Of a DNA stretch of 64,000 nucleotides, positions 9,759 to 48,780 are shown one piece after another. Each line of letters starts with the position of its first letter. Positions within the stretch are counted from its first letter, which is position 1. The position numbers and the translations under genes are program-made. The stretch spans positions 248,001-312,000 of the forward strand of contig NZ_JAGKTL010000003.1 of NCBI RefSeq assembly GCF_017908595.1, given 5' to 3'. A model generated the notes under the pieces. That model was not told the DNA's origin. It made no database searches and worked only from the letters and a program-made list of their open reading frames with translations. Origin of the DNA: Rhodothermus bifroesti. GTDB taxonomy: Bacteria > Bacteroidota > Rhodothermia > Rhodothermales > Rhodothermaceae.

Positions 9759-9797
9759 GGGGCTGGGAGCTGCAAGCCGCAGCTCCCAGCCCCTTTT
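9759..9797 (+). terminator. Rho-independent terminator after the repeat protein
   Basis: A perfect 15-bp stem, GGGGCTGGGAGCTGC (9759-9773) pairing with 9779-9793, with the 5-nt loop AAGCC, followed by TTTT. It separates the repeat-protein gene from the TonB receptor gene. Confidence 0.95.
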
Positions 9798-9822
9798 GTT
9801 AGACTATGCGAATGTACGCGTT

Positions 9823-12480: not shown

Positions 12481-12484
12481 CGCA

Positions 12485-15766: not shown

Positions 15767-15774
15767 CTAAAGCT

Positions 15775-16812
15775 ATGCGACGCGGACACCTGATGCGATG
15801 GATGGCACTGGCCGGAACAGTCATGGTGCTGAGCCTGCCGGTCAGGGCACAGACGGTCTCGAAGGCGGGCACCGTAGCTGCCGACTTTCTCCAGATTGGC
15901 GTAGGCGCTCGGGCTATGGCTTTAGGCGGGTCCTTTGTAGCTGCTGCAGACGACGCCTCGGCACTTTACTGGAATCCAGCGGGCCTGGCCCACATCGAAG
16001 GTGGCGAGGCAATGGCTGTGCACAGCCGCTGGCTCGCCGACGTGAGCTTCGACTACCTGGGCGCAGCGCTGCAGCTAGGCCCCTTGGGCACGCTAGGTGT
16101 TTCGGTCACCATGCTCTCGGTGCCCGAGATGCTCGTGCGGACAGAAGATCGACCTGAAGGCACTGGAGAGCGGTTCGACGCCGCCGATCTGGCTATAGGG
16201 CTTTCCTACGGTCGCGCCATTACCGATCGCTTTGCCATCGGGGCTACGGGGAAATTCATCCAACAGCGCATCTGGCACAGCTCAGCCGTTGGCTTTGCCG
16301 TAGACTTAGGCGTGCAGTTCCGAACCGACTTTTTCGGCGGGCTGACGTTGGGTGCAGCGATTTACAACTTTGGCACCGACATGCGCCTTAGCGGCCGCAA
16401 CCTGCGCACGTTTGTGGACCCCGATCCTACCCGCGAGGGCAATAACAACCGTATTCCAGCAAATTATGAAACGGACAGCTGGAGCCTGCCGCTCAACTTT
16501 CAGTTTGGCATAGCGCTGCGGCCGCTTCAAACGCGCATGCACCAGGTGCTCTTTACGGCCGATGCGTTGCACCCCGCAGCAAACTACGAAAGCATAAATC
16601 TAGGCATGGAATACAGCTTTCAACAGCGCGTCTTTCTGCGCGGAGGCTACCACGCGCTATTTCTCCCCGATGCCGAGGGCGGACTGTCGGCCGGCTTGGC
16701 CGTGCACCAGGTGCTGCCCTACGCAGGCGGTCTAGCAAAGCTGGAATACGCGTATCGAGACGGTGGGCGGCTGGGCAGCATACACATTGTAGGTCTGGGC
16801 ATTACGTTCTAA
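15775..16812 (+). CDS. PorV/PorQ-family outer-membrane beta-barrel protein
   Basis: 345 residues with a signal peptide ending near PVRAQ. The conserved PorV opening is present (FLQIGVGARAMALGGSFVAA, then ASALYWNPAGLA), followed by alternating barrel strands and a C-terminal Phe (IVGLGITF). PorV is a T9SS outer-membrane shuttle protein that hands substrates to the attachment complex; many Bacteroidota have several paralogues next to substrate genes. Its place directly after a gene encoding a T9SS-type protein fits such a role. A FadL-like barrel is a remote alternative. The next gene starts 5 bp after it. Confidence 0.85.
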   Translation: MRRGHLMRWMALAGTVMVLSLPVRAQTVSKAGTVAADFLQIGVGARAMALGGSFVAAADDASALYWNPAGLAHIEGGEAMAVHSRWLADVSFDYLGAALQLGPLGTLGVSVTMLSVPEMLVRTEDRPEGTGERFDAADLAIGLSYGRAITDRFAIGATGKFIQQRIWHSSAVGFAVDLGVQFRTDFFGGLTLGAAIYNFGTDMRLSGRNLRTFVDPDPTREGNNNRIPANYETDSWSLPLNFQFGIALRPLQTRMHQVLFTADALHPAANYESINLGMEYSFQQRVFLRGGYHALFLPDAEGGLSAGLAVHQVLPYAGGLAKLEYAYRDGGRLGSIHIVGLGITF

Positions 16813-16817
16813 CCCCC

Positions 16818-18149
16818 ATGCGTGGTAACACCAGTGCACATCACCCAAAATGGCACGTGCTGCTGTTGAGTGCCCTGATGCTGCTGGGCTGTCACCGCAC
16901 GCTTCCCTTGCCGACGCCAGAGGCCGGGACGGTACGGCTGGTTTACTGGACTGCCCCAAACCCTGACGAAGTCGCTCTGGCCCGAACGTTGGTGTCCGAG
17001 TGGAACGCACTGCACCCCGAGGTGCAGGTTGTCGTGCAGCCTATTCCAGCCGGACAGTCGAGCGAAGAGGTGCTGCTGGCCGCCGTAGTTGCCGGCACGA
17101 CACCTGATGTGTGTTCCAACATTTGGCCTGGCATTGTGCGCGATTTTGTCAAAGCCGGGGCTTTGCTACCGCTGGATCGCTTTGCCGGGTTTGATTCTCT
17201 CTGGAACAGCCGCATTCCTCCCACGCTCCACGAGGTGTTTCGGGCGCCTGATGGCCACGTCTACCAGCTTCCTTGGAAAACCAACCCGATCATGATGCTC
17301 TACAACGCAGGGTTATTCGAGGAGGTAGGACTGCAGCGACCTCCGCGCACCTACAGCGAGTACCTCGAAGCAGCCCGGCGGATTGCAGCCGATACCAACG
17401 GCGACGGCTTAATAGACCGCTGGATGGGCTACCGCGATATCCGGCCCATCTGGTGGCAACGCTACTTCGATTACTATGCGTTCTACATCGCTGCCTCAGG
17501 CGGGCGCACGCTGTTTGATCGCCAAGGTCAGTTGGCCCTAGACACGGTCGCTTCCAATCAAGTGTTTGCGTTTTTTGCCCAGCTTTATGCCATGGGCGCT
17601 TTTCCCAAAACGTCGCTTCAAGGGGGAGGCGGGCCTTTCATCCGCGGGCAACTGGCTACCGACTTTACTGGCCCTTGGCACCTTGTCTGGCTGGAAAAAA
17701 ATGCTCCCCCAGCGTTGCGCTATGAGGTAGCCCCTATCCCCGTGCCTGATGACCACGAAGGCCCGGTCTACACCTACGGAGACTACAAGAACATCGCGAT
17801 TTTTGCGACCACACGGCATCCCGAAGCCGCTTGGCGTTTTGTACGCTTTCTGGTCTCTCGGGAGGCTGACCGCCGCTTGCTCGAAGCAACCCGCCAGATT
17901 CCCGTACGCCAGGGACTGCTGGAAGACCCCTACTTTGCTCCCGTATTTGCGAAATACCCGCTGCTGGCGCACTTTGCTGCACAGGCCGCCTACACACGCA
18001 GCGTCGATAGCGTGCCGGACCTGAAGGAGCTGCTGGATGCCATTGCGCAAGAATTTGAGGCCGCTGCTGTCTACCGCGTGCGCACCCCTTCCGAAGCAAC
18101 CCGCCGAGCTCTACGCCGCATGCAAATGATTCTGGACTGGAATGCGTAA
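16818..18149 (+). CDS. Sugar ABC transporter substrate-binding lipoprotein
   Basis: A 443-residue family 1 extracellular solute-binding protein. The lipoprotein signal has lipobox LLGC, so it is tethered rather than free. Domain I starts RLVYWTAPNPDEVALARTLV; the ligand cleft includes GTTPDVCSNIWPGIV and LPWKTNPIMMLYNAGLF, and the hinge region follows PPRTYSEYLEAARRIA. Such proteins bind malto-, manno-, cello- or other oligosaccharides. It overlaps the first permease gene by 8 bp. The two GH130 genes downstream make beta-mannosides or mannosyl-glucose candidate ligands (inference). Confidence 0.9.
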   Translation: MRGNTSAHHPKWHVLLLSALMLLGCHRTLPLPTPEAGTVRLVYWTAPNPDEVALARTLVSEWNALHPEVQVVVQPIPAGQSSEEVLLAAVVAGTTPDVCSNIWPGIVRDFVKAGALLPLDRFAGFDSLWNSRIPPTLHEVFRAPDGHVYQLPWKTNPIMMLYNAGLFEEVGLQRPPRTYSEYLEAARRIAADTNGDGLIDRWMGYRDIRPIWWQRYFDYYAFYIAASGGRTLFDRQGQLALDTVASNQVFAFFAQLYAMGAFPKTSLQGGGGPFIRGQLATDFTGPWHLVWLEKNAPPALRYEVAPIPVPDDHEGPVYTYGDYKNIAIFATTRHPEAAWRFVRFLVSREADRRLLEATRQIPVRQGLLEDPYFAPVFAKYPLLAHFAAQAAYTRSVDSVPDLKELLDAIAQEFEAAAVYRVRTPSEATRRALRRMQMILDWNA

Positions 18150-19056
18150 ACCGAAGGACATAGCTGCTTTTTTTCCTGAACGCTTGCGCCTACGCAAACG
18201 CAGCAGCTTGGGGGGCTATTTGCTTGTGGCACCGTACCTGCTGCATTTGGTCGTGTTTTTTGGCTATCCCCTCTTGTTTTCCTTTGTGCTCATTTTCCAC
18301 CGCTGGGATATCATTACCCCAATGGAATTCGTAGGACTGAAGAACTTTGCGCGCTTGCTCCGCGACGAGTTGTTTTTTCGAGCGCTGCTCAATACGGGAC
18401 TGTTTTTGACACTACACATTCCGTTGCAGATCGTTGTAGCCTTGTTTTTTGCCGAGTTGCTCAACCGTCCGCTTAAAGGCCGGGGCTTTTTCCGTGCCGC
18501 CTATTTTATGCCGGTGGTGGTCTCGGGCGTGGTGATCACGATTCTGTTTCAGCAATTGTTTGCTTTTGATACAGGGCTAATCAACCGCATGCTGCGGGCT
18601 CTGGGCGGCGAGCCTGTGCCTTGGCTAGTATCGCCGGCTTTGGCTATGCCTTCGATTGCCCTGATGGCTACATGGAAAAACGTAGGGCTCTACATCGTGC
18701 TGTTTTTGGTGGGGTTGCAGCACATTCCAAAACACCTCTACGAAGCAGCCGAGCTCGACGGGGCTAACGCCTGGCAACGATGGTGGCATGTCACGCTGCC
18801 GATGCTCAATCCAGCCATAGTGACGGTGGTAGTGCTTTCGACCATTGGTGGTTTTTCGCTCTTTATTGAACCCTACCTCTTGACCGGGGGCGGACCGCTA
18901 AACGCGACGTTATCGGCCGTGCTGTACATCTACAACCAGGCCTTTTACTTCAACCATATGGGTTATGCCGCAGCGCTGGGTTTTTGTTTTGCCCTGATCA
19001 TTCTGGTCGTGGTGCTGCTGCAGCGGCGTTTGGTAGAAGCCGACACTTGGAGCTGA
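18142..19056 (+). CDS. Sugar ABC transporter permease, MalF/UgpA type
   Basis: 304 residues with six predicted transmembrane helices, the first around YLLVAPYLLHLVVFFGYPLL. The EAA loop that docks the ATPase is EAAELDGANAWQRWWHV, the canonical form in carbohydrate importers. It overlaps the binding-protein gene upstream (8 bp) and is followed 3 bp later by the second permease. There is no ATPase gene in this operon; the MsmK/UgpC-type ATPase at 26431-27525 is the likely partner. Confidence 0.93.
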   Translation: MRKPKDIAAFFPERLRLRKRSSLGGYLLVAPYLLHLVVFFGYPLLFSFVLIFHRWDIITPMEFVGLKNFARLLRDELFFRALLNTGLFLTLHIPLQIVVALFFAELLNRPLKGRGFFRAAYFMPVVVSGVVITILFQQLFAFDTGLINRMLRALGGEPVPWLVSPALAMPSIALMATWKNVGLYIVLFLVGLQHIPKHLYEAAELDGANAWQRWWHVTLPMLNPAIVTVVVLSTIGGFSLFIEPYLLTGGGPLNATLSAVLYIYNQAFYFNHMGYAAALGFCFALIILVVVLLQRRLVEADTWS

Positions 19057-19059
19057 GCC

Positions 19060-19869
19060 ATGCGTCAACTGGGCCTCTACATACTGCTTCTGGCTGGCCT
19101 GCTCGTGTTTGCCTATCCGTTCGTCTGGATGGCAATCGCCACGTTTACGCCGGAGCCTGAGATTCCCGAGCTGACGCTGTGGCCCTCCCGGTGGACGCTA
19201 GACCACTACCGCCTGGTTTTTGAACGCATTCCAATTGGCAGAGCCTTGCTGAATAGCGTGGTCGTGGCTGTTACCGTGACAGCCTCAGCCTTGGTGCTCA
19301 ACTCAATGGCTGCTTATGCACTAGCTAAACTGCACTGGCGTGGACGCGAAGCCGTTTTTACCCTCTTGCTTTTTACACTGATGGTGCCGTTTCTGCTGCT
19401 GCTCATTCCCCTCTATACGCTTGTAGTTCGGCTGGGGTGGACCGACTCCTTGTTGGGCCTGATCGTGCCGTTTATGGCGAACGCGACGGGGGTGTTGATC
19501 TTACGGCAGAGCTTCCTCACCATTCCACAAGACCTGCTTGATGCTGCACGGATAGACGGTTGTGGCGAGCTACGCATCCTGTTTACCATCATCTGGCCGC
19601 TGTCCATACCGGCATTGGTTACGGTAGGGCTCCTGACGTTTATGGCTAGCTGGAATGAGGTGCTCTGGCCGATTTTGGTCGTGCGTGAGCTGCAGTGGAT
19701 GACGATGCCCCAGATGGTGGCGCTATTTGCTGTAGGTGGCGGTGCCGAAGGGCAGCTCGGACCCCAACTGGCAGCAGCTTTCCTGCTAGCGCTGCCTATT
19801 GTGTTGGCCTACCTGTTTTTCCAACGCTACTTCATCCAAAGCTTTGCCACAGGAGGGCTCAAAGGCTAA
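19060..19869 (+). CDS. Sugar ABC transporter permease, MalG/UgpE type
   Basis: 269 residues and about six transmembrane helices. The EAA motif is DAARIDGCGELRILFTI. The N-terminal region YPFVWMAIATFTPEPEI is typical of the MalG/UgpE side of sugar importers. It pairs with the upstream permease. Its TAA stop overlaps the ATG of the next lipoprotein gene by one base (TAATG), a sign of translational coupling, so the lipoprotein is very likely part of the same sugar-use pathway. Confidence 0.93.
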   Translation: MRQLGLYILLLAGLLVFAYPFVWMAIATFTPEPEIPELTLWPSRWTLDHYRLVFERIPIGRALLNSVVVAVTVTASALVLNSMAAYALAKLHWRGREAVFTLLLFTLMVPFLLLLIPLYTLVVRLGWTDSLLGLIVPFMANATGVLILRQSFLTIPQDLLDAARIDGCGELRILFTIIWPLSIPALVTVGLLTFMASWNEVLWPILVVRELQWMTMPQMVALFAVGGGAEGQLGPQLAAAFLLALPIVLAYLFFQRYFIQSFATGGLKG

Positions 19870-21296
19870 TGCACCGTACCCTACATAGCGCTCTGGTGCT
19901 GGTGCTGCTAACGGGCTGCTTAACCGAGCTGCGCAACCGCCCAGAGCCAACAACCTTTTCGATCAATCTGGCCCACCTGGAGCATTTGAGCGAGGATGTG
20001 GTCCGGGGCGACTCGGTGCTGCGCATCGTGCACATCTATGCTGAAGCCCCCGACTATGATTGGGTGGATGACCCCGATGAAGGAGCGGCTTGCGTGGACG
20101 ATGCCGCGCGTGCAGCCGTGCTCTACCTGCGCTTGTATGAGCTGACCGGCGACGAAGCTGCGCGAAGCACAGCCGAAAAGCTCCTGCGCTTTGTGCTCTA
20201 CATGCAACGACCTGATGGGTTGTTCTACAACTTTGTCTACTCCAACCGGCTTGATATCAACGCCACACACCCCAATAGTCGGGCTGAGCCGTTTGGTTGG
20301 TGGGCCGCGCGGGCAGTATGGGCGCTGGGCATGGCGGCCGACGTGCTGCGACAGGGCAATCCAAAGTTGGCTGCGCAAGCTGCGCGTGCTGCGCGCCAGG
20401 CCCTGGTGCCGCTAGAGCGTACTTGGTTGGTGCACTACCCGCGCACGCGGCGCGTAAGCGGCCGCAGCGTGCCTGAATGGCTGGTTTACCACTACGGCGC
20501 CGATGCCTCGAGTGAACTCTTACTCGGACTGGTACGACTCCAGAAGGCTAATCCCGATACAACGCTAGGCCGCATCATCCGCCAGCTTGCCGAAGGCATA
20601 GCCCTGATGCAGTACGGCTCCATGCGTCGCCATCCTTATGCAGCGCATGCCTCCTGGATCGACCTGTGGCACGGCTGGGGGAATGCGCAAACGCAGGCGC
20701 TGGCCGAGGCCGGATACCTCGATTCGGCCATCCGTGAGGCCGAACACTTTTATCCACGACTGCTCGTCTACGGCTGGCTGAAAGAAATGTCCCTCGACGA
20801 CTCAACCCGCCTTGGGCGCTACGAGCAAATTGCTTATGCCGTGCGCACAGTAAGCGTTGGTCTCATCCGGCTCTACGAACGAACAGGCGAGGTGCGCTAT
20901 GCGACGATGGCTGGGCTGGCTGCAAGCTGGCTTACAGGCAACAACGATGCGGGCCTGCCCATGTATGATCCCGCTACCGGTCGCGGATACGACGGCATTC
21001 AAGGCCCAGAAACCATCAACTACAATGCCGGCGCAGAGTCGACCATTGAAGCGCTCTACACCTTACTTGAAGTGCAGCAGCACGCTGCAGCCCGCCGTTG
21101 GCTTAAGGCGCGCGCTGCACCCCCTGTTGAAACTCTGCATAATGGGATCCGTTACGCCTACCGCGTTTTTACTGCCGACTCGGCCCATACCGTGGCCGTG
21201 GTGCTCAACTTGACCGAAGAGCGGCTCCAGATTCTAGAAGGGAAAGAGCTGGAGCGTTTTCTCCAAACAGTAACCCCAAAAGTTGCAAACCCCTAG
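19869..21296 (+). CDS. Lipoprotein of likely alpha/alpha-barrel fold, putative glycan-active enzyme
   Basis: 475 residues from the ATG at 19869. A much longer frame is open upstream, but this ATG overlaps the permease stop and gives a proper lipoprotein signal (LLTGC, Cys17). The protein is helical with motifs typical of six-hairpin/alpha-alpha barrels: DDPDEGAACVDDAARAAVLY, YMQRPDGLFYNFVY, ARAVWALGMA, and GPETINYNAGAESTIEAL. I cannot assign a GH or epimerase family with confidence. Conserved-looking acidic pairs in the first motif could be catalytic. Translational coupling to a sugar permease and a GH130 gene downstream support action on the imported glycan, outside the cytoplasm. Confidence 0.65.
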   Translation: MHRTLHSALVLVLLTGCLTELRNRPEPTTFSINLAHLEHLSEDVVRGDSVLRIVHIYAEAPDYDWVDDPDEGAACVDDAARAAVLYLRLYELTGDEAARSTAEKLLRFVLYMQRPDGLFYNFVYSNRLDINATHPNSRAEPFGWWAARAVWALGMAADVLRQGNPKLAAQAARAARQALVPLERTWLVHYPRTRRVSGRSVPEWLVYHYGADASSELLLGLVRLQKANPDTTLGRIIRQLAEGIALMQYGSMRRHPYAAHASWIDLWHGWGNAQTQALAEAGYLDSAIREAEHFYPRLLVYGWLKEMSLDDSTRLGRYEQIAYAVRTVSVGLIRLYERTGEVRYATMAGLAASWLTGNNDAGLPMYDPATGRGYDGIQGPETINYNAGAESTIEALYTLLEVQQHAAARRWLKARAAPPVETLHNGIRYAYRVFTADSAHTVAVVLNLTEERLQILEGKELERFLQTVTPKVANP

Positions 21297-21316
21297 TGCC
21301 TAAAACCCAGAAACGT

Positions 21317-22348
21317 ATGTCGTACACTAGTTCCGTAGTAGCCTTGTTTCAACGCCATCCCGAACCGATTCTCAGCCCGATGCCAGAGGTGTCCTGGGCT
21401 TCGGGCGCGGTCTTTAATCCAGGCGCTTGGTACGACGGCGCGCAAGTACACCTGCTCTTTCGGGGCGTGCCGGCAGGCTACCGGCGTGTGCCTTTGGAGC
21501 AAACCCGGCCTGGCGAGCCAGCCTGGGGATTTGAGCCGTATGTGTCGTACATCGGCTATGCCCATAGTAGCGATGGGGTGCACTTTACCGTACGACCGGA
21601 GCCGTTTATCCATCCAGACGCGCCCTACGACCGCTTTGGCGTCGAAGACCCCCGCATTAGCCGCATCGACGATCTCTACCTGATCACGTACACCGCCTTG
21701 GGTGCTCCAGCTTTTGCTACGCCGGGGTGCGTACGCATTGGGCTAGCCTCGAGTCCGGATTTTCGTACCGTAACCAAACATGGCATCGTCGGCCCTGAAA
21801 TGACCGATAAGGATGCCGTGATTTTTCCCAAACGCATTCGCGGACGCATTGCGATGTTGCACCGCATCGCGCCTTCCATCCAGCTGATCTACTTCGAGGA
21901 CCTAGAGCAGCTTTTTCATCCCCCAGCCGCGCTTTGGGAACGCCACCTGCGCACGCTCGACGAGCACGTGATCCTTCGGCCTGAGTTTCCTTGGGAAGCC
22001 AAAAAAATCGGAGCTGGCCCAACACCGATCGAAACCCCTGAGGGCTGGTTGCTGCTCTACCACGGCGTCGATATGCAGTACGTATACCGCATGGGTATGG
22101 CATTGCTAGACCTAGAGGATCCCAAGCGCGTCATTGCCCGCACGCCAGAACCTGTGTTGGCCCCTGAACTCCCTTTTGAACGGGAAGGCGATGTGCCGAA
22201 CGTGGTTTTTCCGGAAGGCGCTGTCGTGATCAACGATATGCTGTATGTGTACTATGGGGCAGCAGATCGGACAGTCGGCCTGGCGCGGGCCTCGCTCTCA
22301 GACGTGCTTACCTACCTGCGCACCTGTCCCGCAGAGGTTTCTTCGTAG
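21317..22348 (+). CDS. GH130-family glycoside phosphorylase (A-type of the pair)
   Basis: 343 residues from the ATG at 21317. A GTG at 21296 is possible, but the chosen start gives the same length before the active-site motif as the paralogous fusion at 45566 (D111 versus E111). The five-bladed propeller family is recognised by WASGAVFNPGAWYDG, GVEDPRIS (catalytic Asp111), KDAVIFPKRI and MLHR (phosphate-contacting Lys and Arg in GH130 phosphorylases), and TPEGWLLLYHGVD. GH130 enzymes phosphorolyse beta-mannosides to mannose 1-phosphate; a few are hydrolases. No signal peptide, so cytoplasmic. The next GH130 gene starts 23 bp downstream. Confidence 0.88.
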   Translation: MSYTSSVVALFQRHPEPILSPMPEVSWASGAVFNPGAWYDGAQVHLLFRGVPAGYRRVPLEQTRPGEPAWGFEPYVSYIGYAHSSDGVHFTVRPEPFIHPDAPYDRFGVEDPRISRIDDLYLITYTALGAPAFATPGCVRIGLASSPDFRTVTKHGIVGPEMTDKDAVIFPKRIRGRIAMLHRIAPSIQLIYFEDLEQLFHPPAALWERHLRTLDEHVILRPEFPWEAKKIGAGPTPIETPEGWLLLYHGVDMQYVYRMGMALLDLEDPKRVIARTPEPVLAPELPFEREGDVPNVVFPEGAVVINDMLYVYYGAADRTVGLARASLSDVLTYLRTCPAEVSS

Positions 22349-22371
22349 CCCAAGCGCTCATCGCAAAGACT

Positions 22372-23466
22372 ATGCGTACGATTACTACACCTCCTCCCGT
22401 AGTGCCCGTGCGGTTGCACGGTGGGCGACCGGTGCTTGAGCCCATTGCGCAGCATGCCTGGGAGTCGCGTGTCGTGTTTAATCCGGCTGCGGCCTTGATC
22501 ACAGAAGCTGACGAGTGGCATCGGCTCGCAGAGCGCTGGAAGCTTCCAAGGGCGGCGCGTCGGCAGATTGCGCAGGCCGGAGGCGTTGTGGCCTTAGTGT
22601 ACCGGGCTCAAGGAGCGTATGACCCCATGCGCCATCATGCTCCATCGCGCCTAGGACTGGCCCTGCTTACGCCCACCCTGGAGCTCGTGTATCGCTTTCC
22701 GTTTCCTGTAGTCGATGCCACGGCTGACTTCCATAACCTGGGGGTCGAAGATCCCCGATGCACCCGCGTGGGCGATACCTATTACATATTCTACACGGGC
22801 TATGCCACAGAAGTCCTCGGAGACCCTAAGGCGCCGCGTCGGATTCAAATCTGCCTGGCCTCGACCCAGGATTTTCTGGACTGGAAGCTACATGGCCCAA
22901 TTCCAGGTGAGCTAAACCAAGTAGACAATAAAAATGCAGCGCTCTTCCCAGAACCCGTCGACGGTCGCTGGCTGCTGTTACACCGGCCTATGGCCGGGCC
23001 AGACGCCATGACGATCCATTGGGCTGAGGCGCAAGAGGTCACTGGCCCTTGGAAAAGCCGAGGCATGCTTCTTCCTAGCTATACTTATAGAGAATTTGCC
23101 CAATCCTGGATTGGCGCCGGTGGCCCTCCAATTGCGCTAGATCATCGGCGATTCTTGATGATCTACCATCAAGGCCACTACACCCATGAGGGTGCCCGAG
23201 AGTACAACCTGGCAGCCGCACTGCTGGACTTCGCGCAAACAGCCTCGCCAGTGGTGGGACGCATCGAGCCGCTCATGCGTCCAGCCGCTGAAGGCGAGCG
23301 GCAAGGCGACCCCGAATTGGGCGTAGACAACGTGCTTTTTACCTGTGCTGCCTACTTATGGAACGGCCAAGTAGTGATTCCCTATGCCGGTGCCGATAGC
23401 CGAATTTTTGGAGCTTCGGTACCTCTGGAACCCTTGGTGCGTGCACTAGAACAGGCATCCAGATGA
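22372..23466 (+). CDS. GH130-family glycoside phosphorylase (B-type of the pair)
   Basis: 364 residues, cytoplasmic. GH130 signs are WESRVVFNPAA, LGVEDPRCTRVGDTYYIFYTGY (catalytic Asp127), NKNAALFPEPVDGRWLLLHRP and the closing VIPYAGADSRIF. Compared with the preceding enzyme it has a longer insert after the first motif (about residues 43-90), so the two are distinct subtypes rather than a recent duplication. It aligns without gaps over its first 130 or so residues with the C-terminal half of the fusion at 45566-47740, starting at its own initiator Met. Its TGA overlaps the ATG of the next gene (ATGA). Exact substrate unknown. Confidence 0.88.
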   Translation: MRTITTPPPVVPVRLHGGRPVLEPIAQHAWESRVVFNPAAALITEADEWHRLAERWKLPRAARRQIAQAGGVVALVYRAQGAYDPMRHHAPSRLGLALLTPTLELVYRFPFPVVDATADFHNLGVEDPRCTRVGDTYYIFYTGYATEVLGDPKAPRRIQICLASTQDFLDWKLHGPIPGELNQVDNKNAALFPEPVDGRWLLLHRPMAGPDAMTIHWAEAQEVTGPWKSRGMLLPSYTYREFAQSWIGAGGPPIALDHRRFLMIYHQGHYTHEGAREYNLAAALLDFAQTASPVVGRIEPLMRPAAEGERQGDPELGVDNVLFTCAAYLWNGQVVIPYAGADSRIFGASVPLEPLVRALEQASR

Positions 23467-25202
23467 ACGCGCTGCTGCTTGCCCTAGGCTTATTGGCTAC
23501 GCTGCCCGCCGCAACTGCGCAAGCGCAGTCCCAACAGGATTTGCGCACCCCGCTAGCTCGTGTGGGTAAAACCGTCATCGATCGGGCGCGCTTCCTGGAG
23601 CGTTATGAGCATGCCGTGTGGATCGGCAAAGAGCGTAGCGGCACGAGCATCGTGCCCAAGCATGCCTTTCTGCTGGCCCTCATTGCCGAGGAACTCCTGG
23701 CGCAAGAGGGGGCTCGGCGTGGACTTGACCAGGAGCGACCGCTCAAGCCGATCCTGCAAGAAATCGAGCGCATGCTGCTGCTCGACGCGCTCTATCGCCA
23801 AGAGGTACAAGCACCAGTCCAGCTTACAGAGGCCGAAATCGACTCGGTAGCGCGGTGCCGCTTGCGTCCGGTGACTTTCGCCTACCTGACGCTGCCTGAT
23901 TCGCTGCAAGCGGTCCACCTCTATCAGATCGTGCAGCGGTCCCACGACCCAGTGGGCACTTGGGATTCGCTTGCGCAGCTGCAAGGCCAAGCTGGACAGT
24001 ACAAAACAGCCCGATGGGGCGAGCTGGCCGAAGCCTTTGAAAACCTCCTCTACGTTGCACTTAAAGCCCCAGGCGAAACCGGTCCGCCTGTACGTATCGA
24101 CAGCCTCTATTACGTAGTGCAGCTTCGAGACCAAAATACGCCCGTGCTGGTCACTCCCGACACCTGGGAGCAAGTCCGCTACGAAGCCGGACGCATACTG
24201 CGCCAGCGGCGCGAGCGGGCACGTTTCCAAACGTTTATGGCGCGCTTTGGTCAGGGCAAAGCCGCGCGTGTGCGCGACAGCCTGTTTTACCAGCTCGCTG
24301 AGGCCATCCAGACGCAGCTCGCCCTTCAGCAAAGACAACAGCCATCAGGTGTGCCGCTTAGATTGGCTTCAGCGGACTGGGAAGGGGTGCGCTTCACGCT
24401 ATCCGATGCGCTGGAGCAGCCTTTGATTGAGGCAGCCACGTTTCAGCGATCCCTCGACTACGTGCTTGACCGCTTAGCTTCTCAAGACTTTGCCGTGCAG
24501 GCAGTGGAAGCAGTGCCTTATCGCCTGCGTCAAAAGCTCTGGGAGCTGATTACCGAAGAGTTTTTGCTTGAGGAAGCTCGGGCGCGGGGGCTTGAATACC
24601 GGTTTGAGTTGCAACAGGACCTGCAGCTTTGGCGCACGGCTTATCTGGCCCGTGGCATGCAACGTGTGCTGGCCGATTCGCTGCGCCAGGCTTGGCAAGG
24701 TCGCTTGTGGCTCGTCAAATTATGTCGCGCAACGTTAGCCTCAGAAGCAGAGGCTAGCGTGCTGCGTCGGCAGTGGGAGCAAACGCCGGGAAGCTGCACA
24801 GGCGCTTCTGTCGACACGCTGGACTACCGCTTGGCCCCTACGCTAGGATTGGCCGGTGAGCTGGCTGCTGTAGCTGCGCCCGGATCTGTGCTAGGCCCGT
24901 TTGCTGAGGAGCAACAGTGGCGCCTTTACCGGCTGCTCGATCGGAAACAACCCAAAGATCCAGAAGCTGCTTTTCAGGAGGCAGCACGCGAAGCCGTGAA
25001 CGCTTACGTAGCACGCCTTGCTGAAACTTACAGGGTGACGATCGACCTGGAGGCCCTCGAGGCAACGCGCGTCATTCCGATGAATATGGTACTGGTACGG
25101 CTCTTGGGCTTTGGCTATCGTCTGCTGGCTGCGCCCACCGTTTATCCACTCGTGGAGTGGTTTGATCGGATCGATAAGCGGCAACTTTATGCTCCATTAT
25201 AG
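23463..25202 (+). CDS. SurA/PpiC-like periplasmic folding factor (putative peptidyl-prolyl isomerase)
   Basis: 579 residues with a signal peptide (LLLALGLLATLPAATAQAQ). The N-terminal region (GKTVIDRARFLERYEHAV, FLLALIAEELLAQEGARRGL) resembles the SurA N-domain. A degenerate parvulin-like segment may lie near residues 130-225. A second SurA-N-like helical pair comes later (residues about 340-400: LWELITEEFLLEEARARGL). Proteins of this class assist outer-membrane protein folding. Being coupled by ATGA overlap to a GH130 gene is unusual; it may simply share the transcript. It converges with the next gene, overlapping 16 bp at the 3' ends. Family call moderate; isomerase activity uncertain. Confidence 0.6.
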   Translation: MNALLLALGLLATLPAATAQAQSQQDLRTPLARVGKTVIDRARFLERYEHAVWIGKERSGTSIVPKHAFLLALIAEELLAQEGARRGLDQERPLKPILQEIERMLLLDALYRQEVQAPVQLTEAEIDSVARCRLRPVTFAYLTLPDSLQAVHLYQIVQRSHDPVGTWDSLAQLQGQAGQYKTARWGELAEAFENLLYVALKAPGETGPPVRIDSLYYVVQLRDQNTPVLVTPDTWEQVRYEAGRILRQRRERARFQTFMARFGQGKAARVRDSLFYQLAEAIQTQLALQQRQQPSGVPLRLASADWEGVRFTLSDALEQPLIEAATFQRSLDYVLDRLASQDFAVQAVEAVPYRLRQKLWELITEEFLLEEARARGLEYRFELQQDLQLWRTAYLARGMQRVLADSLRQAWQGRLWLVKLCRATLASEAEASVLRRQWEQTPGSCTGASVDTLDYRLAPTLGLAGELAAVAAPGSVLGPFAEEQQWRLYRLLDRKQPKDPEAAFQEAAREAVNAYVARLAETYRVTIDLEALEATRVIPMNMVLVRLLGFGYRLLAAPTVYPLVEWFDRIDKRQLYAPL

Positions 25203-26341
25203 CCTACGGGCAGTCCGGCTTGCCTTGAGGCCTCAAGCGCTACCTGCAAACTGACCAGCCCTTCGCGCAGCATAACGCGCGGCTGGTGGTCTGGGTGACG
25301 TATGGCCTGCACAAAGTCCTGCAAAACAGCCCGAAGGGCCTCTTGATAGATTTCGGCTTTGGAAGCCGAAAGCGCAAGCGTGCCTTCGAGGAGCAGGTCT
25401 ACGCTGTAGGCGTGCTCCCCGAAGCGGCAAACATGCGGGTCGGTAGAGGTGCTGGTTAGACCCCAGCCTTCAGGGCGGGACTCGTCTGGCACGGCTTCTA
25501 CCGGCAGTTGCCGTAGGGTCCTAAAAAAGGGTAGGGTCTGGAGCTGCTGGGCAACGGATTCGGTAGCCAAGGCAACCAGATGTCCGCTGCGCGGGATCCA
25601 ACCCGTAAGCTCTAGGCGCGCCAGGTCAAAGACAAAGCGAAGCGAAGTGTGCTCGAAAAACCCAGGCCCGGCAAACGCATGATAGTGCGTGGCCACCAAA
25701 CCATCGGCATAGACAACCGTAGCCAGCATGCGGTCCATTTGCCTAGGTGTGCGCCATACCCCAGCCCCTTGTACCTTAACCAGTGCGGCCGATGTGCAGC
25801 CCTGTACCAAGTCGATGAAATGGATACCATGCTCAACCAGAATGCCACCCGATTGGCTGGGATCCCAGAACCAGTGCGTTGGCGGCAAGGTAGCATCCTG
25901 AGCGTAGTTTTCGACCACTACGCGACGGAGCCGGCCAAACGTACCTTCGCGGCACCAGGTGTGCACCAGCGCTACCAGCGGCGTATAGCGAAGCACAAAA
26001 TCCACCATGGCCACCCGACCGGTGCGCGCTTGGGTTTCTTGAAGCCAGCGAACCTCTTCGAGGGTAAGCGCTGGAGGTTTTTCGATCAATACGTGCTTGC
26101 CAGCCTCCATAGCTGCACAAGCAATAGCAGCATGCAGATGAGGTGGGGCAGCGATGGCAACCCCTTCTACGTCTGCATGGGTCAGCAAAGCCTGCCAGTC
26201 CGTGTAGCCCTGAATGCCCGCTGGCAACTTGGGCAGCGCTGGGTCCGCAATCGCTACCAGCGCCACGTCGGTCATCTGCTGCCAAGCATGATGGAGAAAG
26301 CGGCCAAAACCGCCATAGCCGATGAGTCCTAGCCGAAACAT
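25187..26341 (-). CDS. Gfo/Idh/MocA-family NAD(P)-dependent oxidoreductase
   Basis: 384 residues. The N-terminal Rossmann fold has GLIGYGGFGRFLHHAW, then PPHLHAAIACAAMEAGKHVL and the EKPPALTLEEV motif with the conserved Lys of this family. The C-terminal alpha/beta domain includes GGILVEHGIHFIDLV. Members oxidise or epimerise sugars, inositols and sugar nucleotides. It is divergent from the sugar ATPase gene (89 bp between starts) and convergent with the SurA-like gene, so it is its own transcription unit. A role in processing the imported sugar is plausible but not shown. Confidence 0.9.
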   Translation of the reverse strand: MFRLGLIGYGGFGRFLHHAWQQMTDVALVAIADPALPKLPAGIQGYTDWQALLTHADVEGVAIAAPPHLHAAIACAAMEAGKHVLIEKPPALTLEEVRWLQETQARTGRVAMVDFVLRYTPLVALVHTWCREGTFGRLRRVVVENYAQDATLPPTHWFWDPSQSGGILVEHGIHFIDLVQGCTSAALVKVQGAGVWRTPRQMDRMLATVVYADGLVATHYHAFAGPGFFEHTSLRFVFDLARLELTGWIPRSGHLVALATESVAQQLQTLPFFRTLRQLPVEAVPDESRPEGWGLTSTSTDPHVCRFGEHAYSVDLLLEGTLALSASKAEIYQEALRAVLQDFVQAIRHPDHQPRVMLREGLVSLQVALEASRQAGLPVGYNGA

Positions 26342-26430
26342 ACGTCGCTGAGCCTAATGCACCCAAAAGTAGCGCTGTATGATTTCAAGATTGTCAACGT
26401 AATTTACAAGCGAGCAAATTTCACAGAGCT
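26342..26430. promoter_or_regulatory. Divergent promoter region between the oxidoreductase and ATPase genes
   Basis: An 89-bp, relatively A/T-rich spacer between two start codons. It must hold promoters in both directions. A short symmetrical element GTAA-T-TTAC lies at 26399-26407, just upstream of the ATPase start; its function is unknown. Confidence 0.35.
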
Positions 26431-27525
26431 ATGTCTGGAGTTCAGCTAGAGCATGTCTGGAAAATGTACGACAATGGCCACGTGGCTGTGGCAGATGTCA
26501 CGCTGGAGGTAGCCGATGGCGAGTTTCTGGTACTTTTGGGGCCTTCAGGCTGCGGCAAAACGACGCTGTTGCGTCTGGTGGCAGGATTAGAGACCGTTTC
26601 ACGCGGTACGATTCGCATTGGCGATCGGGTGGTGAACGACGTGCCCCCACGCGACCGAGACATTGCGATGGTGTTTCAAAACTATGCCCTCTATCCACAC
26701 ATGACCGTCTACGAAAACATGGCCTTTGGGCTAAAGCTAAGGCGCATGCCCAAAGCCGAAATTGAGCGCCGGGTGCGGGCAGCTGCTCGGGTGTTGGAGC
26801 TAGAGCAAGTGCTCAACCGTCGACCACACCAGCTTTCGGGTGGGCAGCGTCAGCGCGTAGCGGTTGGACGGGCTATTGTGCGCGAGCCCCAGGTGTTTTT
26901 GTTTGATGAGCCGCTGTCGAATCTGGATGCACGTTTGCGTGTAGAGATGCGCGCCGAGTTGGCCCGGCTGCACCGTGAGCTGGGTCGCACGATGCTCTAC
27001 GTGACGCATGACCAAGTGGAAGCCATGACTCTAGGCCAGCGTATCGTGGTCCTTAATCAAGGACGCGTGCAACAGATCGGCACACCAATGGAAGTATATC
27101 ACCGGCCTGCCAACCGCTTTGTGGCCAGCTTTATCGGCAGCCCACCCATGAACTTTTTGGAAGGACGTGTTGAACAGCACTGGTTTATTGCTGAAGATGG
27201 GCGGGTGCGCATTCCGCTCCCTCAGGCAGTTTGGTCAGGGCTGCCTATGGGGCGGGCTGTAACCCTCGGGATTCGACCTGAAGCTGTACGTCTTGCTTTA
27301 CCCGAAGAGGCCATGATGCACGGCCGAGTGGAGACGGTTGAGGTTTTGGGAGCCATAGCGCATCTTTACGCCCGTGTGGGCCAAACGCCGATCGTGGCTC
27401 AGGTAGAGGCTAGCCGACGGTTTGATCCTGGCTGCGAAGTACCGCTTAGCGTGGACTGCGCTCAGCTGCACCTGTTCGACGCTGAAAGCGGCCAAGCTAT
27501 TCCGAGAGGTGATACGCCAGCGTAA
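26431..27525 (+). CDS. Carbohydrate-importer ABC ATPase (MsmK/UgpC/MalK type)
   Basis: 364 residues. Walker A GPSGCGKTT, Q-loop FQNYALYPHMTVYENMAFGL, signature LSGGQRQRVAVGRAIV and Walker B VFLFDEPLSNLD are present. A C-terminal regulatory OB/TOBE domain starts near residue 240 (IGSPPMNFLEG) and includes LGIRPEAVRL. This subfamily energises CUT1 sugar importers and one ATPase often serves several. It stands alone, about 6.6 kb downstream of the binding-protein/permease operon that lacks an ATPase, which makes it the likely partner. Confidence 0.95.
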   Translation: MSGVQLEHVWKMYDNGHVAVADVTLEVADGEFLVLLGPSGCGKTTLLRLVAGLETVSRGTIRIGDRVVNDVPPRDRDIAMVFQNYALYPHMTVYENMAFGLKLRRMPKAEIERRVRAAARVLELEQVLNRRPHQLSGGQRQRVAVGRAIVREPQVFLFDEPLSNLDARLRVEMRAELARLHRELGRTMLYVTHDQVEAMTLGQRIVVLNQGRVQQIGTPMEVYHRPANRFVASFIGSPPMNFLEGRVEQHWFIAEDGRVRIPLPQAVWSGLPMGRAVTLGIRPEAVRLALPEEAMMHGRVETVEVLGAIAHLYARVGQTPIVAQVEASRRFDPGCEVPLSVDCAQLHLFDAESGQAIPRGDTPA

Positions 27526-43578: not shown

Positions 43579-45426
43579 ATGATGCGTCTACACTTCCTAA
43601 GCTATCTTATGCTTATACTTTTGGCGGCCGCCTGTCGGCAAGCAACGCCGCCTGCATCCGACACGACGTTTGCGCCGCTTTCTCATTACGATACGCAAGC
43701 GCGAGCGCTCCTGGCTCAAATGACCTTAGAAGAAAAAATCGGCCAGATGATTCAGGCCGAGCAGGCATTTTTGCAGGAGCCGGCAGACATTCAGACCTAT
43801 TACCTGGGTTCTATTCTCAGCGGAGGAAACTCTGATCCTGCTGCAGGGAACAGTCTCCAAGCTTGGACAGAAGTTTACGACAGCCTGCAAGCTATTGCCC
43901 TGCGCACGCGCTTAGGCATTCCGTTGCTTTACGGCATCGATGCTGTGCATGGCCACAGCAACGTCGAAGGTGCGGTGATTTTCCCACACAATATTGGCCT
44001 GGGTTGCACGCGCGATCCGAAGCTTGTCGAAGAAGTGCATCGCATCACGGCTATCGAAATGCGTGCTACAGGCATTCATTGGAATTTTGCACCCTGCATT
44101 GCGGTGGCCCGTGACGAGCGCTGGGGACGCACCTACGAAAGCTTTTCGGAAAATCCAGAACTTGTCGCCGAGCTGGGTGCTGCTGCTGTACGTGGGTTGC
44201 AACATGGGGGTCTGCGTAACCCCTTGGCGGTGCTGGCAACCGCTAAGCATTTTGCAGGCGATGGCGGCACTACCTTCGGTACCGGTGGCCCTCAAGGGGC
44301 ACTATTGGACCAAGGCGACACGCGGCTGGACGAAGCAACGTTTCGGCAGCTCCACGTACGTCCTTACCTTGACGCCATTCGCGCGGGCGTAGGCGCTATT
44401 ATGGTGTCCTATAATAGCTGGAATGGCGTTAAAATGACGGGCCACCGGTACATGCTCACCGAGGTGCTGAAAAATGAACTAGGCTTCGAAGGCATTGTCA
44501 TTTCCGACTACAATGCGATCGATCAGGTCCACCCAGACTACAAAACCGCTATTGAGCTTTCGATCAATGCCGGTATCGATATGGCCATGGTGCCCACCCG
44601 CTACCGGGAGTTCTTTCGCTTGTTGAAAGAACTCGTCGAAGAGGGACGGGTGCCTATGGAACGCATTGACGATGCCGTGCTGCGCATTTTGCGGGTTAAG
44701 TATGCTATGGGACTGATGGACGGCGAGCGGGCTGTTTTTGCTGATCGTAGCCTTTGGGCTCAGTTTGGCTCGGCCGAGCATCGGGCGCTAGCCCGGGAGG
44801 CCGTGCGTAAATCGCTCGTTTTGTTGAAAAACGAAAACCGCACCCTGCCCCTGGCCAAAAACTTGCCTCGTATTCATGTGGCTGGACTCCACGCCGACAA
44901 CTTGGGCTACCAGTGTGGCGGCTGGACAATCGACTGGCAGGGTGGCAGCGGGCGCATCACCGAAGGCACAACCATTCTGGAAGCAATCCGAAAAGCCGTC
45001 GCCCCAGGCACCCAGGTCACATATACTGAAGACGGCAGTGGGGCACAAGGGGCTAGTGTAGCGATTGCGGTCATTGGAGAGCGCCCGTATGCCGAATTTC
45101 TCGGCGACCGCTCCGACCTGTCGCTGGATCCGGACGACGTAGCTGTCGTGCGTCGGCTTAAAGCAGCTGGTGTGCCTGTCGTGGTTGTGCTGATCTCTGG
45201 TCGGCCCATGATTATTAACGACGTGCTTGAGTTGGCCGATGCGTTTGTGGCAGCTTGGCTACCTGGCACCGAAGGCGACGGCGTGGCCGACGTGCTTTTT
45301 GGCGATTATGCGCCTACGGGCAAGTTGTCGTTTAGCTGGCCACGCAGCATGCATCAAATCCCAATCAATGTGGGTGACGAGCCCTATGAACCGCTCTTCC
45401 CCTACGGCTATGGCTTGACCTACTAA
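43579..45426 (+). CDS. GH3-family beta-glucosidase-like lipoprotein
   Basis: 615 residues with a lipoprotein signal (LLAAACRQ), thus exported and anchored. The GH3 (beta/alpha)8 domain contains [59 protein letters not shown] and the nucleophile Asp310 in [10 protein letters not shown]. The C-terminal alpha/beta sandwich ([15 protein letters not shown] onward) ends with YGYGLTY. There is no fibronectin III-like tail, as in the shorter plant ExoI-like beta-glucan exohydrolases. It probably removes glucose from beta-glucans outside the cytoplasm. Start 43579 or 43582. A strong terminator follows. Confidence 0.93.
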
Positions 45427-45565: not shown

Positions 45566-47740
45566 GTGTCTGTATCTATTCAGACTGCACTCATGGCGCT
45601 TTTGCAACGCACAGCTCATCCTATCCTGAGCCCCCGTCCGGAGCTACCCTGGGCTTCAGGAGCTGTCTTTAACCCCAGCGCTTGGTACGACGGTACCCGC
45701 GTGCATCTGGTCTTCCAAGCGGTTACCGCAGGCTACCGGCATTCCCCACTGCCGAACGCCCAAAACAACCTGCTGGCTTATGACTTTACCCCATCGGTGC
45801 TGGGCTATGCCACCAGCACCGACGGACTGCATTTTACCTGGCGCGAAGTGCCTCTTTTGGAGCCTAGCGAAGCATCTGACCGTTACGGTCTGGAAGAGCC
45901 ACGCGTTACCTTTCTAGAAGGGCGCTACTGGATTACGTACACCGTACGCAGCACCCTAGGCCCTGGAGCTGAAGACGGCGTGCACATCGGCATGGCCTCG
46001 ACCATAGACTTTGAACGTTTAGAAAAACACGGCATCATAGGACCTCCAGGGCACAGCAAAGGCGCTGTGCTGTTCCCACGCCGCCTTGGCGGAAAGATTG
46101 CCTTGCTACATCATATCGAACCCGATATTCAAATCGTTTACTTTCAGGACTGGGAGCAGCTGCTGCAATATGCGGTGTATGTTTGGACTGAACACCTGGC
46201 CGATATCGACGAGCATGTGGTTTTGCGCCCTGCACGCCTATGGGAACGTCAAAAAATCGTTGCCGGTGCACCGCCCCTGGAAACACCTGAAGGCTGGTTG
46301 CTTCTCTACTGCGGTGTAGACGAAACGTACACCTATCGGGCAGGGGCTGCCTTGCTCGACCTTGACGATCCGCAGCGCACAATTGCACGTACGCGCGTGC
46401 CTCTACTTGAACCCGAATTGCCGTTTGAGCGTGAAGGAGTTTCCCCCGGAGGTGCTGTAGTGATCGAAGACCGCTTGCACGTCTACTATAGTGCCGCCAA
46501 TAAAATGGTAGGACATGCCGCAGCGCCGCTGCGAGACGTGGTCGACTTTGTGCTGGAAGAGCAGCGGCGCAGCTGGTCTATGCCACGGGTGTACATGCTG
46601 TCTACCCAAGGGGGGCAAGCAGCAATGCGTACCCTGGCCCAACCTGTACCGGTGACTGTTGAGCGGTTGCATGGGGGACAACCCGTGCTGGAGCCTTTAC
46701 CGCAGCATCCTTGGGAATCGCGCGTAGTGCTCAATCCAGCAGCTGTGCTCGTTGAAGCTGGCCCAGAGCTTGAACAGCTGATGCACGCCTGGGAGCTGAG
46801 TGCGGCGCAGCGCGAGCGATTGCGCCAAGCAGGGGGGGCCTGCGTTATGATTTACCGGGCACAGGGGGCCGAAGGGCTGCCTCGAGGCCATGCCCCATCG
46901 TCACTCGGATTGGCTGTACTGACGCCCACCCTGGAGCTTGTGCAGCGTTGGCCCGAGCCTATCATCCGCCCCGATGCCGTCTTCCAAGACCTCGGTGCCG
47001 AAGATGCCCGATGCACCCGCGTAGGCGACACCTACTACCTTTTTTACACAGGCTATACCACCGAAAACCCGCGCTTCCCGTCGTTTTTGGGGCGTGTGCA
47101 TATTTGTTTGGCCACGACAAAAGATTTTATCCACTGGGAGCTTCACGGGCCCATCCCAGGTGATGTCAACGCAGTAGACAATAAAAATGCTGCTTTGCTG
47201 CCTGAACCGGTCGATGGCCAGTGGCTACTCCTGCACCGACCGCTTTACGGGCCACATCCTATGGCCATTCACCTGGCCGAAGCCGACCGGCCCGAAGGCC
47301 CCTTCCGCAGTCGCGGCCTGTTTATGGCGAGCTACCGCTATCGCGAGTTCGCACTTTCCTGGATCGGTGCTGGTGGTCCCCCCATCGCTTTGGACAAGCG
47401 GCGCTTCTTAATGATTTACCACCAAGGGCATCTCGACTGGGAGGGGCATCGCGAGTACGACTTAGCCGCAGCGCTGCTGGATTTCAACCGGCCTGATCCT
47501 GTTGTAGCCCGCCTAGAGCCGCTCATGCGGCCTACAGGAGATCAGGAAAAAGTAGGTGACCCACTCCTGGGCGTCGACAATGTGCTGTTTGCTTGTGCTA
47601 ACTACCGATGGGGTCCGGACCTGATCATTCCTTATGCTGCTGCCGACAGCCGAATCTTCGGAGCACGCGTTTCTTTTGACGCCTTGCTTGAGGCCCTCAT
47701 GCGCATGACCACGACAGAAGCAACAACGCCTAAATCATAG
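45566..47740 (+). CDS. Tandem double-GH130 fusion protein
   Basis: 724 residues, no signal peptide. Residues 1-330 correspond to the A-type GH130 at 21317-22348 and 354-724 to the B-type at 22372-23466, with a 23-residue linker. The GTG start at 45566 is favoured because it keeps register with the A-type protein; an ATG at 45593 is the alternative. In the N-half the GH130 motif EDPR is EEPR (Glu111 in place of the catalytic Asp) and LHR is LHH (His183). In the C-half Asp480 is kept but EDPR is EDAR, and NKNA and LLLHRP are intact. So the C-half is probably the active one. The GT4 gene follows 8 bp later. Confidence 0.88.
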   Translation: MSVSIQTALMALLQRTAHPILSPRPELPWASGAVFNPSAWYDGTRVHLVFQAVTAGYRHSPLPNAQNNLLAYDFTPSVLGYATSTDGLHFTWREVPLLEPSEASDRYGLEEPRVTFLEGRYWITYTVRSTLGPGAEDGVHIGMASTIDFERLEKHGIIGPPGHSKGAVLFPRRLGGKIALLHHIEPDIQIVYFQDWEQLLQYAVYVWTEHLADIDEHVVLRPARLWERQKIVAGAPPLETPEGWLLLYCGVDETYTYRAGAALLDLDDPQRTIARTRVPLLEPELPFEREGVSPGGAVVIEDRLHVYYSAANKMVGHAAAPLRDVVDFVLEEQRRSWSMPRVYMLSTQGGQAAMRTLAQPVPVTVERLHGGQPVLEPLPQHPWESRVVLNPAAVLVEAGPELEQLMHAWELSAAQRERLRQAGGACVMIYRAQGAEGLPRGHAPSSLGLAVLTPTLELVQRWPEPIIRPDAVFQDLGAEDARCTRVGDTYYLFYTGYTTENPRFPSFLGRVHICLATTKDFIHWELHGPIPGDVNAVDNKNAALLPEPVDGQWLLLHRPLYGPHPMAIHLAEADRPEGPFRSRGLFMASYRYREFALSWIGAGGPPIALDKRRFLMIYHQGHLDWEGHREYDLAAALLDFNRPDPVVARLEPLMRPTGDQEKVGDPLLGVDNVLFACANYRWGPDLIIPYAAADSRIFGARVSFDALLEALMRMTTTEATTPKS

Positions 47741-47748
47741 GAAGCACG

Positions 47749-48780
47749 ATGCGGATTGCGATGCTGGCACCGATTGCCTGGCGCGTACCGCCTCGGCATT
47801 ACGGACCCTGGGAGCAAGTGGTATGGCTGCTTACTGAAGGACTAGTCGAACGCGGGCTCGATGTGACGCTTTTTGCAACGGCCGATGCGCAAACGCGCGC
47901 CCGTTTGATTGCTGTTTGCCCCCGCCCCTATGAAGAGGATCCCACCCTAGATGTCAAAGTTTGGGAATGCCTCCATATCAGTGAAGTCTTTGAACGCGCT
48001 GAGGCATTTGATCTCATCCATAACCACTTCGACTTTCTGCCGCTCACCTATAGCGGTCTGGTACGTACACCTGTGCTTACCACAATTCATGGATTTTCTT
48101 CGGAGCGCATTCTGCCCGTTTATCGCAAATACAACGGCCAGACCTATTACGTTGCGATCAGCCATGCCGATCGACATCCCGATTTGGACTATGTAGCAAC
48201 CGTCTATCATGGTATCGACCTGGAGGCTTTTACGTTGCGTACTGAACCAGGTACCTATCTGTTATTTTTGGGACGGATTCATCCCGACAAAGGCACGCGT
48301 GAGGCCATCGAGGTGGCACTCCAAAGCGGAATGCCGCTCAAAATCGCCGGCATTATTCAAGATCGGGCCTATTTTGCGCAGGAAGTAGCTCCTTTTATCG
48401 ATGGCCAACAAATCCAATATCTGGGCCCTGTAGGGCCTCAAGAGCGGGATGTGCTTTTAGGCGGGGCCTATGCATTGGTGCACCTTATTAACTTCAACGA
48501 GCCGTTTGGCCTTAGCGTGGTCGAAGCGATGGCTTGCGGCACCCCCGTGCTGGCACGGCCGCGTGGTGCCATGCCTGAAATTGTGCGCGATGGTCAAACG
48601 GGCGTGCTGGTGCAGACCGTAGCGGAGGCTGTAGAAGCCCTGCCGCGCCTAGGACAGCTTGACCGGGCACAGATTCGGGCCTACGTGGCATCTCGCTTTA
48701 GCCGCGAGCGCATGGTAGAGGATTACCTGCGTGTTTACCAGGAAGTGCTGGATCGGCACCGCGCCCGCCAGGCCGCTTGA
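47749..48780 (+). CDS. GT4-family glycosyltransferase
   Basis: 343 residues, GT-B fold. The N-domain begins MRIAMLAPIAWRVPPRHYGPWE, with IHNHFDFLPL and TIHGFSSE. The C-domain has LLFLGRIHPDKGTREAI and the donor-binding EPFGLSVVEAMACGTPVLA. AGGAAG lies 5 bp upstream of the ATG and the gene is 8 bp after the double-GH130 gene, so they are co-transcribed. GT4 enzymes use nucleotide sugars or sugar phosphates with retention. A GH130/GT4 pair could make and recycle a manno- or mannosyl-gluco-oligosaccharide, for example a storage or compatible solute (inference). Confidence 0.9.
   Translation: MRIAMLAPIAWRVPPRHYGPWEQVVWLLTEGLVERGLDVTLFATADAQTRARLIAVCPRPYEEDPTLDVKVWECLHISEVFERAEAFDLIHNHFDFLPLTYSGLVRTPVLTTIHGFSSERILPVYRKYNGQTYYVAISHADRHPDLDYVATVYHGIDLEAFTLRTEPGTYLLFLGRIHPDKGTREAIEVALQSGMPLKIAGIIQDRAYFAQEVAPFIDGQQIQYLGPVGPQERDVLLGGAYALVHLINFNEPFGLSVVEAMACGTPVLARPRGAMPEIVRDGQTGVLVQTVAEAVEALPRLGQLDRAQIRAYVASRFSRERMVEDYLRVYQEVLDRHRARQAA

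Follow-up and report, generated by a model that had tools for sequence, protein, structure and literature searches.

Two adjacent GH130 genes, Teth514_1788 and Teth514_1789, have been characterised in Thermoanaerobacter sp. X-514, and their products differ in chain-length preference (PMC4264767; PDB 9fj8, 9gph, 7fip). In Rhodothermus marinus, a two-domain GH130 protein encoded next to RmBgl3C was also mentioned, as an annotation only (PMC6987092). Both GH130 pairs within one operon and the two-domain protein of R. marinus are hence on record, and the remark of an earlier sequence-only reading of this DNA, that it knew of no described GH130 A-B pair system, has to be withdrawn. The family further includes BT3780 and BACOVA_03624, GH130 β-1,2-mannosidases of a subgroup with an altered phosphate site (PMC4599007), and members of mannan pathways that combine GH130 with a sugar 2-epimerase.

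Here, a stretch of 64,000 nucleotides from Rhodothermus bifroesti (hereafter, the window) was analysed, which carries a separate GH130 gene A (21317–22348), a separate GH130 gene B (22372–23466), and an ORF in which both types are joined (45566–47740; hereafter, the fusion). Our main reading, to which we assign a probability of roughly 0.6, is that A and B form one β-mannoside module of a conserved uptake operon, that they were fused once, and that the fused A half later died in the window's species. The features concerned are as follows.

9796–12480, forward strand: TonB-dependent receptor
12485–15766, forward strand: conserved 1093-aa protein
15775–16812, forward strand: PorV/UPF0164-like protein
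16818–18149, forward strand: solute-binding protein of an ABC importer
18142–19056 and 19060–19869, forward strand: two permeases of the ABC importer
19920–21296, forward strand: x500, an (alpha/alpha)6 protein directly upstream of A, homologue of YPO2471 (PDB 7tem); start codon not settled
21317–22348, forward strand: separate A gene, GH130 with canonical residues intact
22372–23466, forward strand: separate B gene, a divergent GH130 that carries Trp at one putative phosphate-site position
26431–27525, forward strand: MalK/UgpC-type ABC ATPase
43579–45426, forward strand: GH3 enzyme upstream of the fusion, counterpart of the GH3 at the R. marinus locus (PMC6987092)
45566–46570, forward strand: A half of the fusion (aa 1–335), GH130 propeller with active-site residues lost
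46571–46624, forward strand: linker of the fusion (aa 336–353), of low confidence in the AF2 model and resembling the linker of Rubrivirga-like fusions
46625–47740, forward strand: B half of the fusion (aa 354–724, ending at the stop), all catalytic positions of the B family kept, including the SWIGAG Trp
47741–47748, no strand: 8-bp junction between the fusion stop and the GT4 start, where the C-type GH130 of six sister species is missing
47749–48780, forward strand: GT4 glycosyltransferase downstream of the fusion

The fusion starts with GTG and encodes 724 residues as a tandem of two GH130 domains without an internal stop. Its A half is 53% identical to the A gene over 334 aa (E = 3e-115), and its B half is 63% identical to the B gene over 359 aa with one gap (E = 9e-159). 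A and B themselves are only about 27–29% identical, so that the A-B order in the fusion is unambiguous. The same order and the alignment of fusion M354 with the initiator Met of B, both pointed out in the sequence-only reading, were thereby reproduced. The Pfam family PF04041 matched the A gene (195 bits), the B gene (86 bits) and both halves of the fusion (200 bits over two stretches) against a cut-off of 26, while the equivalog cut-off of NF052550 (β-1,2-mannobiose phosphorylase, 450 bits) was reached by none of them (A, 265; B, 139; fusion, 325). The window genome contains five GH130 stretches in all; besides A, B and both halves of the fusion, there is a fifth on a different contig.

The separate pair lies in an uptake operon (9796–27525 in the window), whose conserved order is TonB receptor, 1093-aa protein, PorV-like protein, solute-binding protein, two permeases, x500, A, B and MalK. 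The Teth514 genes are likewise adjacent and are clustered with an ABC transporter and a GT4 gene, but their neighbours are a GH5 and a guanylyltransferase instead of the TonB receptor and x500 found here. The x500 protein matches the solved Yersinia protein YPO2471, its model is of (alpha/alpha)6 type, and its next-best matches are sugar 2-epimerases, including cellobiose 2-epimerases. This resembles the mannan pathways mentioned above, although x500 belongs to the YPO2471 family and any epimerase role is putative. Its gene is a neighbour of GH130 genes both in this class and in several genomes of Bacteroidota, and two related Bacteroidota loci each hold two different GH130s near x500. In Ignavibacteriales, a tandem of two B-like genes is followed by a GH2 gene with a mannosidase-type Ig domain (β-mannosidase-like). 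The imported substrate is hence most likely a β-mannoside. The 1093-aa protein has no Pfam family; wherever the operon is complete, it adjoins the TonB receptor and is 44–90% conserved. A 579-aa protein (23463–25202), which overlaps the stop of B by 4 bp, has weak PPIC/SurA-type matches, and related proteins are encoded in the operon of further Rhodothermus species and, in Ignavibacteriales, close to the B-B pair.

The distribution of these genes was surveyed in 245 genomes of the class, with B counted at E ≤ 1e-60. The sequence-only reading had named co-occurrence of A and B across genomes as a check on the pair, and this was borne out, as B was present in 22 genomes and A in the same 22. The two are adjacent as A-B or fused in all of them except Roseithermus, where they lie 3.4 kb apart; the measured gaps of the other split pairs range from −8 to +146 bp. 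One further genome (G098) has an orthologous A with an interrupted B, and another (G470) has no A beyond a distant A-like protein (237 bits). Remote homologues of B (about 43%) without an A neighbour were found in Kryptonia, Ignavibacteriales and two other genomes. The window genome (G000) represents one of seven species (G000–G006) of the genus, including MAGs named Rhodothermus. All seven carry the fusion, which also occurs in Rubrivirga-like genomes. The separate A and B pair is found in G000, G001 and G002; G003 and G004 have A without B in the uptake operon, and separate A and B are absent from G005 and G006, the latter retaining the transporter and x500. Loss of B from the uptake operon (G003, L073; G004, L074) and loss of both A and B (G006, L117) were confined to species whose fusion, located elsewhere, is intact. 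A Rubrivirga-like GH130 fusion was also found on a contig filed as a Pimelobacter MAG (L093, NZZG01000012.1), which is probably mislabelled or mis-binned.

The location of the fusion differs between the two groups. In the Rubrivirga-like genomes G047 and G049, it stands where A and B would be in the uptake operon. The Rhodothermus fusion lies in a second gene group consisting of GH3, the fusion, a third GH130 gene (C), GT4 and SDR. This is the locus reported for R. marinus as GH3, two-domain GH130, second GH130 and GT4 (PMC6987092). All six sister species have C downstream of the fusion and keep both active sites in it, whereas the window's species has neither C nor the A site. The GH3 gene is missing in G004 (L068, 9332–9878) and in pieces in G005 (L069, 3848–5640), both with the fusion intact; an assembly error is possible in each case.

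For the residue comparison, A, B, C and the fusion halves were aligned with Teth514_1788/1789 and Lin0857. The Arg of an LHR motif and the His of a YHG motif belong to an Arg/Lys/His trio that we take to be the phosphate-site residues, as is backed here by their conservation among the aligned phosphorylases. A search of the open-access literature found no text naming the phosphate-binding residues of GH130. The residue set of an active phosphorylase (acid Asp, −1-subsite Asp and Asn, and three basic residues) is complete in the separate A and in the A halves of the sister fusions. The Teth514 pair is the closest to A by sequence, and the catalytic residues of A are the same. A Lys equivalent to BT3780 Lys199, which marks β-1,2-mannoside specificity (PMC4599007), is present in A, B, C and the fusion halves. 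The separate B and the B half of the fusion keep the whole phosphorylase set except for one Lys/Arg, which is replaced by Trp. All B proteins examined retain the equivalents of Asn28, Asp98, Asp287, the β-1,2 Lys, Arg and His, and all contain the Trp in a SWIGAG motif except one second copy in Ignavibacteriales. The same position is Lys or Arg in A, C and both Teth514 enzymes, and Gln in the large GH130 of two Bacteroidota loci. B shares the acid Asp, the Asn and the β-1,2 Lys with BT3780 and BACOVA_03624; however, those mannosidases are devoid of all three basic phosphate residues and use Glu, while B exchanges one position for Trp and keeps Arg and His. The Ignavibacteriales B-B tandem (L103, 4749–7107) has Trp in one gene and Arg in the other at this position, which is again one canonical and one substituted partner.

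The origin of the fusion was examined by phylogeny. When each half was given its own tree, the A halves of the fusions formed one group (81/94), and so did the B halves (96/89). A concatenated tree, which was built without the degenerate window protein, placed all fused forms on one side of a single branch (99/97). A tree constrained to unite the Rhodothermus fusions with the separate pair of that genus is worse by 41.5 log units and is rejected (AU p = 5.1e-5). The linkers look alike, reading EEQRxSWxMPRVYM in Rhodothermus and EERGxGHVARVHL in the Rubrivirga-like fusions, and the linker of the window's fusion does not resemble the local A-B spacer. Four of the seven Rhodothermus-type species, the window's among them, have ATG as the internal Met codon and the other three have CTG, and the position holds no start codon in the Rubrivirga-like fusions. 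A single clade, the rejection of local grouping, the similar linkers and the non-conserved Met position thus point most likely to one old fusion event, the product of which may have reached its place in Rhodothermus by relocation or by lateral transfer. A recent local duplication of the window genome's A-B pair with read-through, as suggested by the sequence-only reading on account of the same gene order and the M354 alignment, is hardly credible against these data and the presence of the fusion in all seven species and beyond the genus. What stands of that proposal is the descent from an adjacent A-B pair, with which the replacement of A and B by the Rubrivirga-like fusion in the same operon and the strict co-occurrence agree; loss of the stop in the local pair does not stand. 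Two independent fusions are not favoured, owing to the single branch and the apparently homologous linkers. That a separate B product is started from a conserved internal ATG is ruled out, since the Met is not conserved.

The A half of the window's fusion differs from all others. It carries R51Q, D111E, D166G, R183H, H249C and D312N, together with a five-residue deletion near aa 291. Both −1-subsite Asp are changed, the equivalent of Asp98 to Glu and that of Asp287 to Asn (roles from PMC4264767), and the +1-subsite Arg, equivalent to BT3780 Arg89 (PMC4599007), became Gln. The LHR Arg became His, and the YHG His became Cys, at two putative phosphate-site positions. The equivalents of Asn28, the β-1,2 Lys and one basic-site residue are kept. 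The residue set of an active phosphorylase is incomplete in this half. Among 78 columns that are invariant across all the remaining A proteins, 17 are changed here and 0–1 in the other fusions, whereas none of 81 invariant columns is changed in the B half. Loss of the A site was seen in the window genome alone; with one genome examined per species, the degenerate A half was seen just once. The protein branch of the window genome measures 0.52 for the A half and 0.28 for the B half; in the rest of the genus, it is B that changes more overall. The reading frame is nevertheless open and codon usage is normal, which rules out an ordinary pseudogene. This A half is probably a lineage-specific pseudoenzyme domain, although the D-to-E and R-to-H changes could in principle leave a weak or new activity.

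How the A half persists can be read in several ways. The loss of the active site in an open frame suggests that the dead A half is probably either a structural partner or a passenger. In a neutral simulation with an equal number of replacements, 12.5 ± 2.9 hydrophobic-core columns were lost, compared with 3 observed, and none of 300 runs was as low. The replacements are conservative in kind, and dN is far below dS, which is saturated. These data suggest that the fold is retained by selection and speak against a mere passenger that drifts freely except for selection against stops and frameshifts abolishing translation of the B half. Such selection upstream of B would nonetheless suffice to explain frame retention without any function of A. 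In addition, core retention loses significance when the simulation is matched on the number of active-site losses (p = 0.07), the A-half branch is fast, and the genome also carries A and B intact as separate genes. We hold the passenger reading to be somewhat less likely than not. The retained frame, fold residues and codon usage, along with the Asn28, β-1,2-Lys and basic-site equivalents, might alternatively reflect a new function, in which the changed residues would form a different binding or catalytic site. We regard this as improbable, considering the loss of both −1-subsite Asp and two putative phosphate residues, the deletion, and a single sequence that shows no new conserved pattern.

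The relationship between A and B was considered along the same lines. The AF2 model of the fusion (mean pLDDT 80, pTM 0.56) exhibited the five-bladed propeller fold, and GH130 phosphorylases came out as its closest structures in the PDB (TM 0.87 on target), led by Teth514_1788. It gives no firm inter-domain arrangement and hence neither supports nor excludes an A-B complex. A physical complex is plausible from the fusion and the strict neighbourhood. Nearly even odds are given to A and B being two independent phosphorylases with different chain-length preferences, as in Thermoanaerobacter, whose fusion would serve co-expression or stoichiometry without a complex. The unfused Teth514_1788 and Teth514_1789 are a homodimer and a monomer, respectively (PMC4264767), and the 3.4-kb separation of A and B in Roseithermus and the loose AF2 arrangement are consistent with independence; the fixed order, the near-strict adjacency and the substituted site of B leave room for dependence of B on A. 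Pushed further, this dependence would make A and B subunits of an obligately heteromeric GH130 enzyme, with the A propeller as a support or regulator of B. The fused A half of the window's species would then be a true pseudoenzyme subunit, and the Trp-modified site of B would perform a chemistry not yet described in GH130. We consider this combination unlikely.

In the main reading, A and B would be two different β-mannoside-active GH130 enzymes constituting one functional module of a class-wide oligosaccharide-uptake operon. A would be an inverting mannoside phosphorylase of the canonical kind known from Teth514_1788/1789, with the β-1,2-marking Lys. B would be its divergent partner, which shares the mannose-binding and acid residues but has Trp for one putative phosphate-site Lys/Arg. 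They would most likely act successively on one imported β-mannoside to yield mannose 1-phosphate. The pair was most likely fused once, and the product now lies in the uptake operon of Rubrivirga-like genomes and in a second operon of Rhodothermus. In the window's species, the fused A half then lost its active-site residues and the C gene disappeared, which would leave a fusion with only the B half potentially active beside a dead A propeller. The gene anatomy, the co-occurrence, the single origin and the residue losses are observed here, whereas the substrate, the successive action, the catalytic death and any scaffold role are deduced. In the open-access literature, which lacks most subscription journals, no report was found of the near-strict A-B pairing in the class, the single fusion origin, the Trp-site B family or the lineage-specific loss of the A-half site, and no paper on GH130 pseudoenzymes.

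Why two different GH130 enzymes share one operon can be studied at this locus as a natural experiment. Six sister species hold fusions with two intact sites and one species holds a fusion with the B site only, which makes it possible to examine whether B receives structural support from A. The Trp-site B family constitutes an uncharacterised GH130 group, the chemistry of which, whether phosphorolysis, hydrolysis or transfer, is directly testable with proteins that are probably heat-stable.
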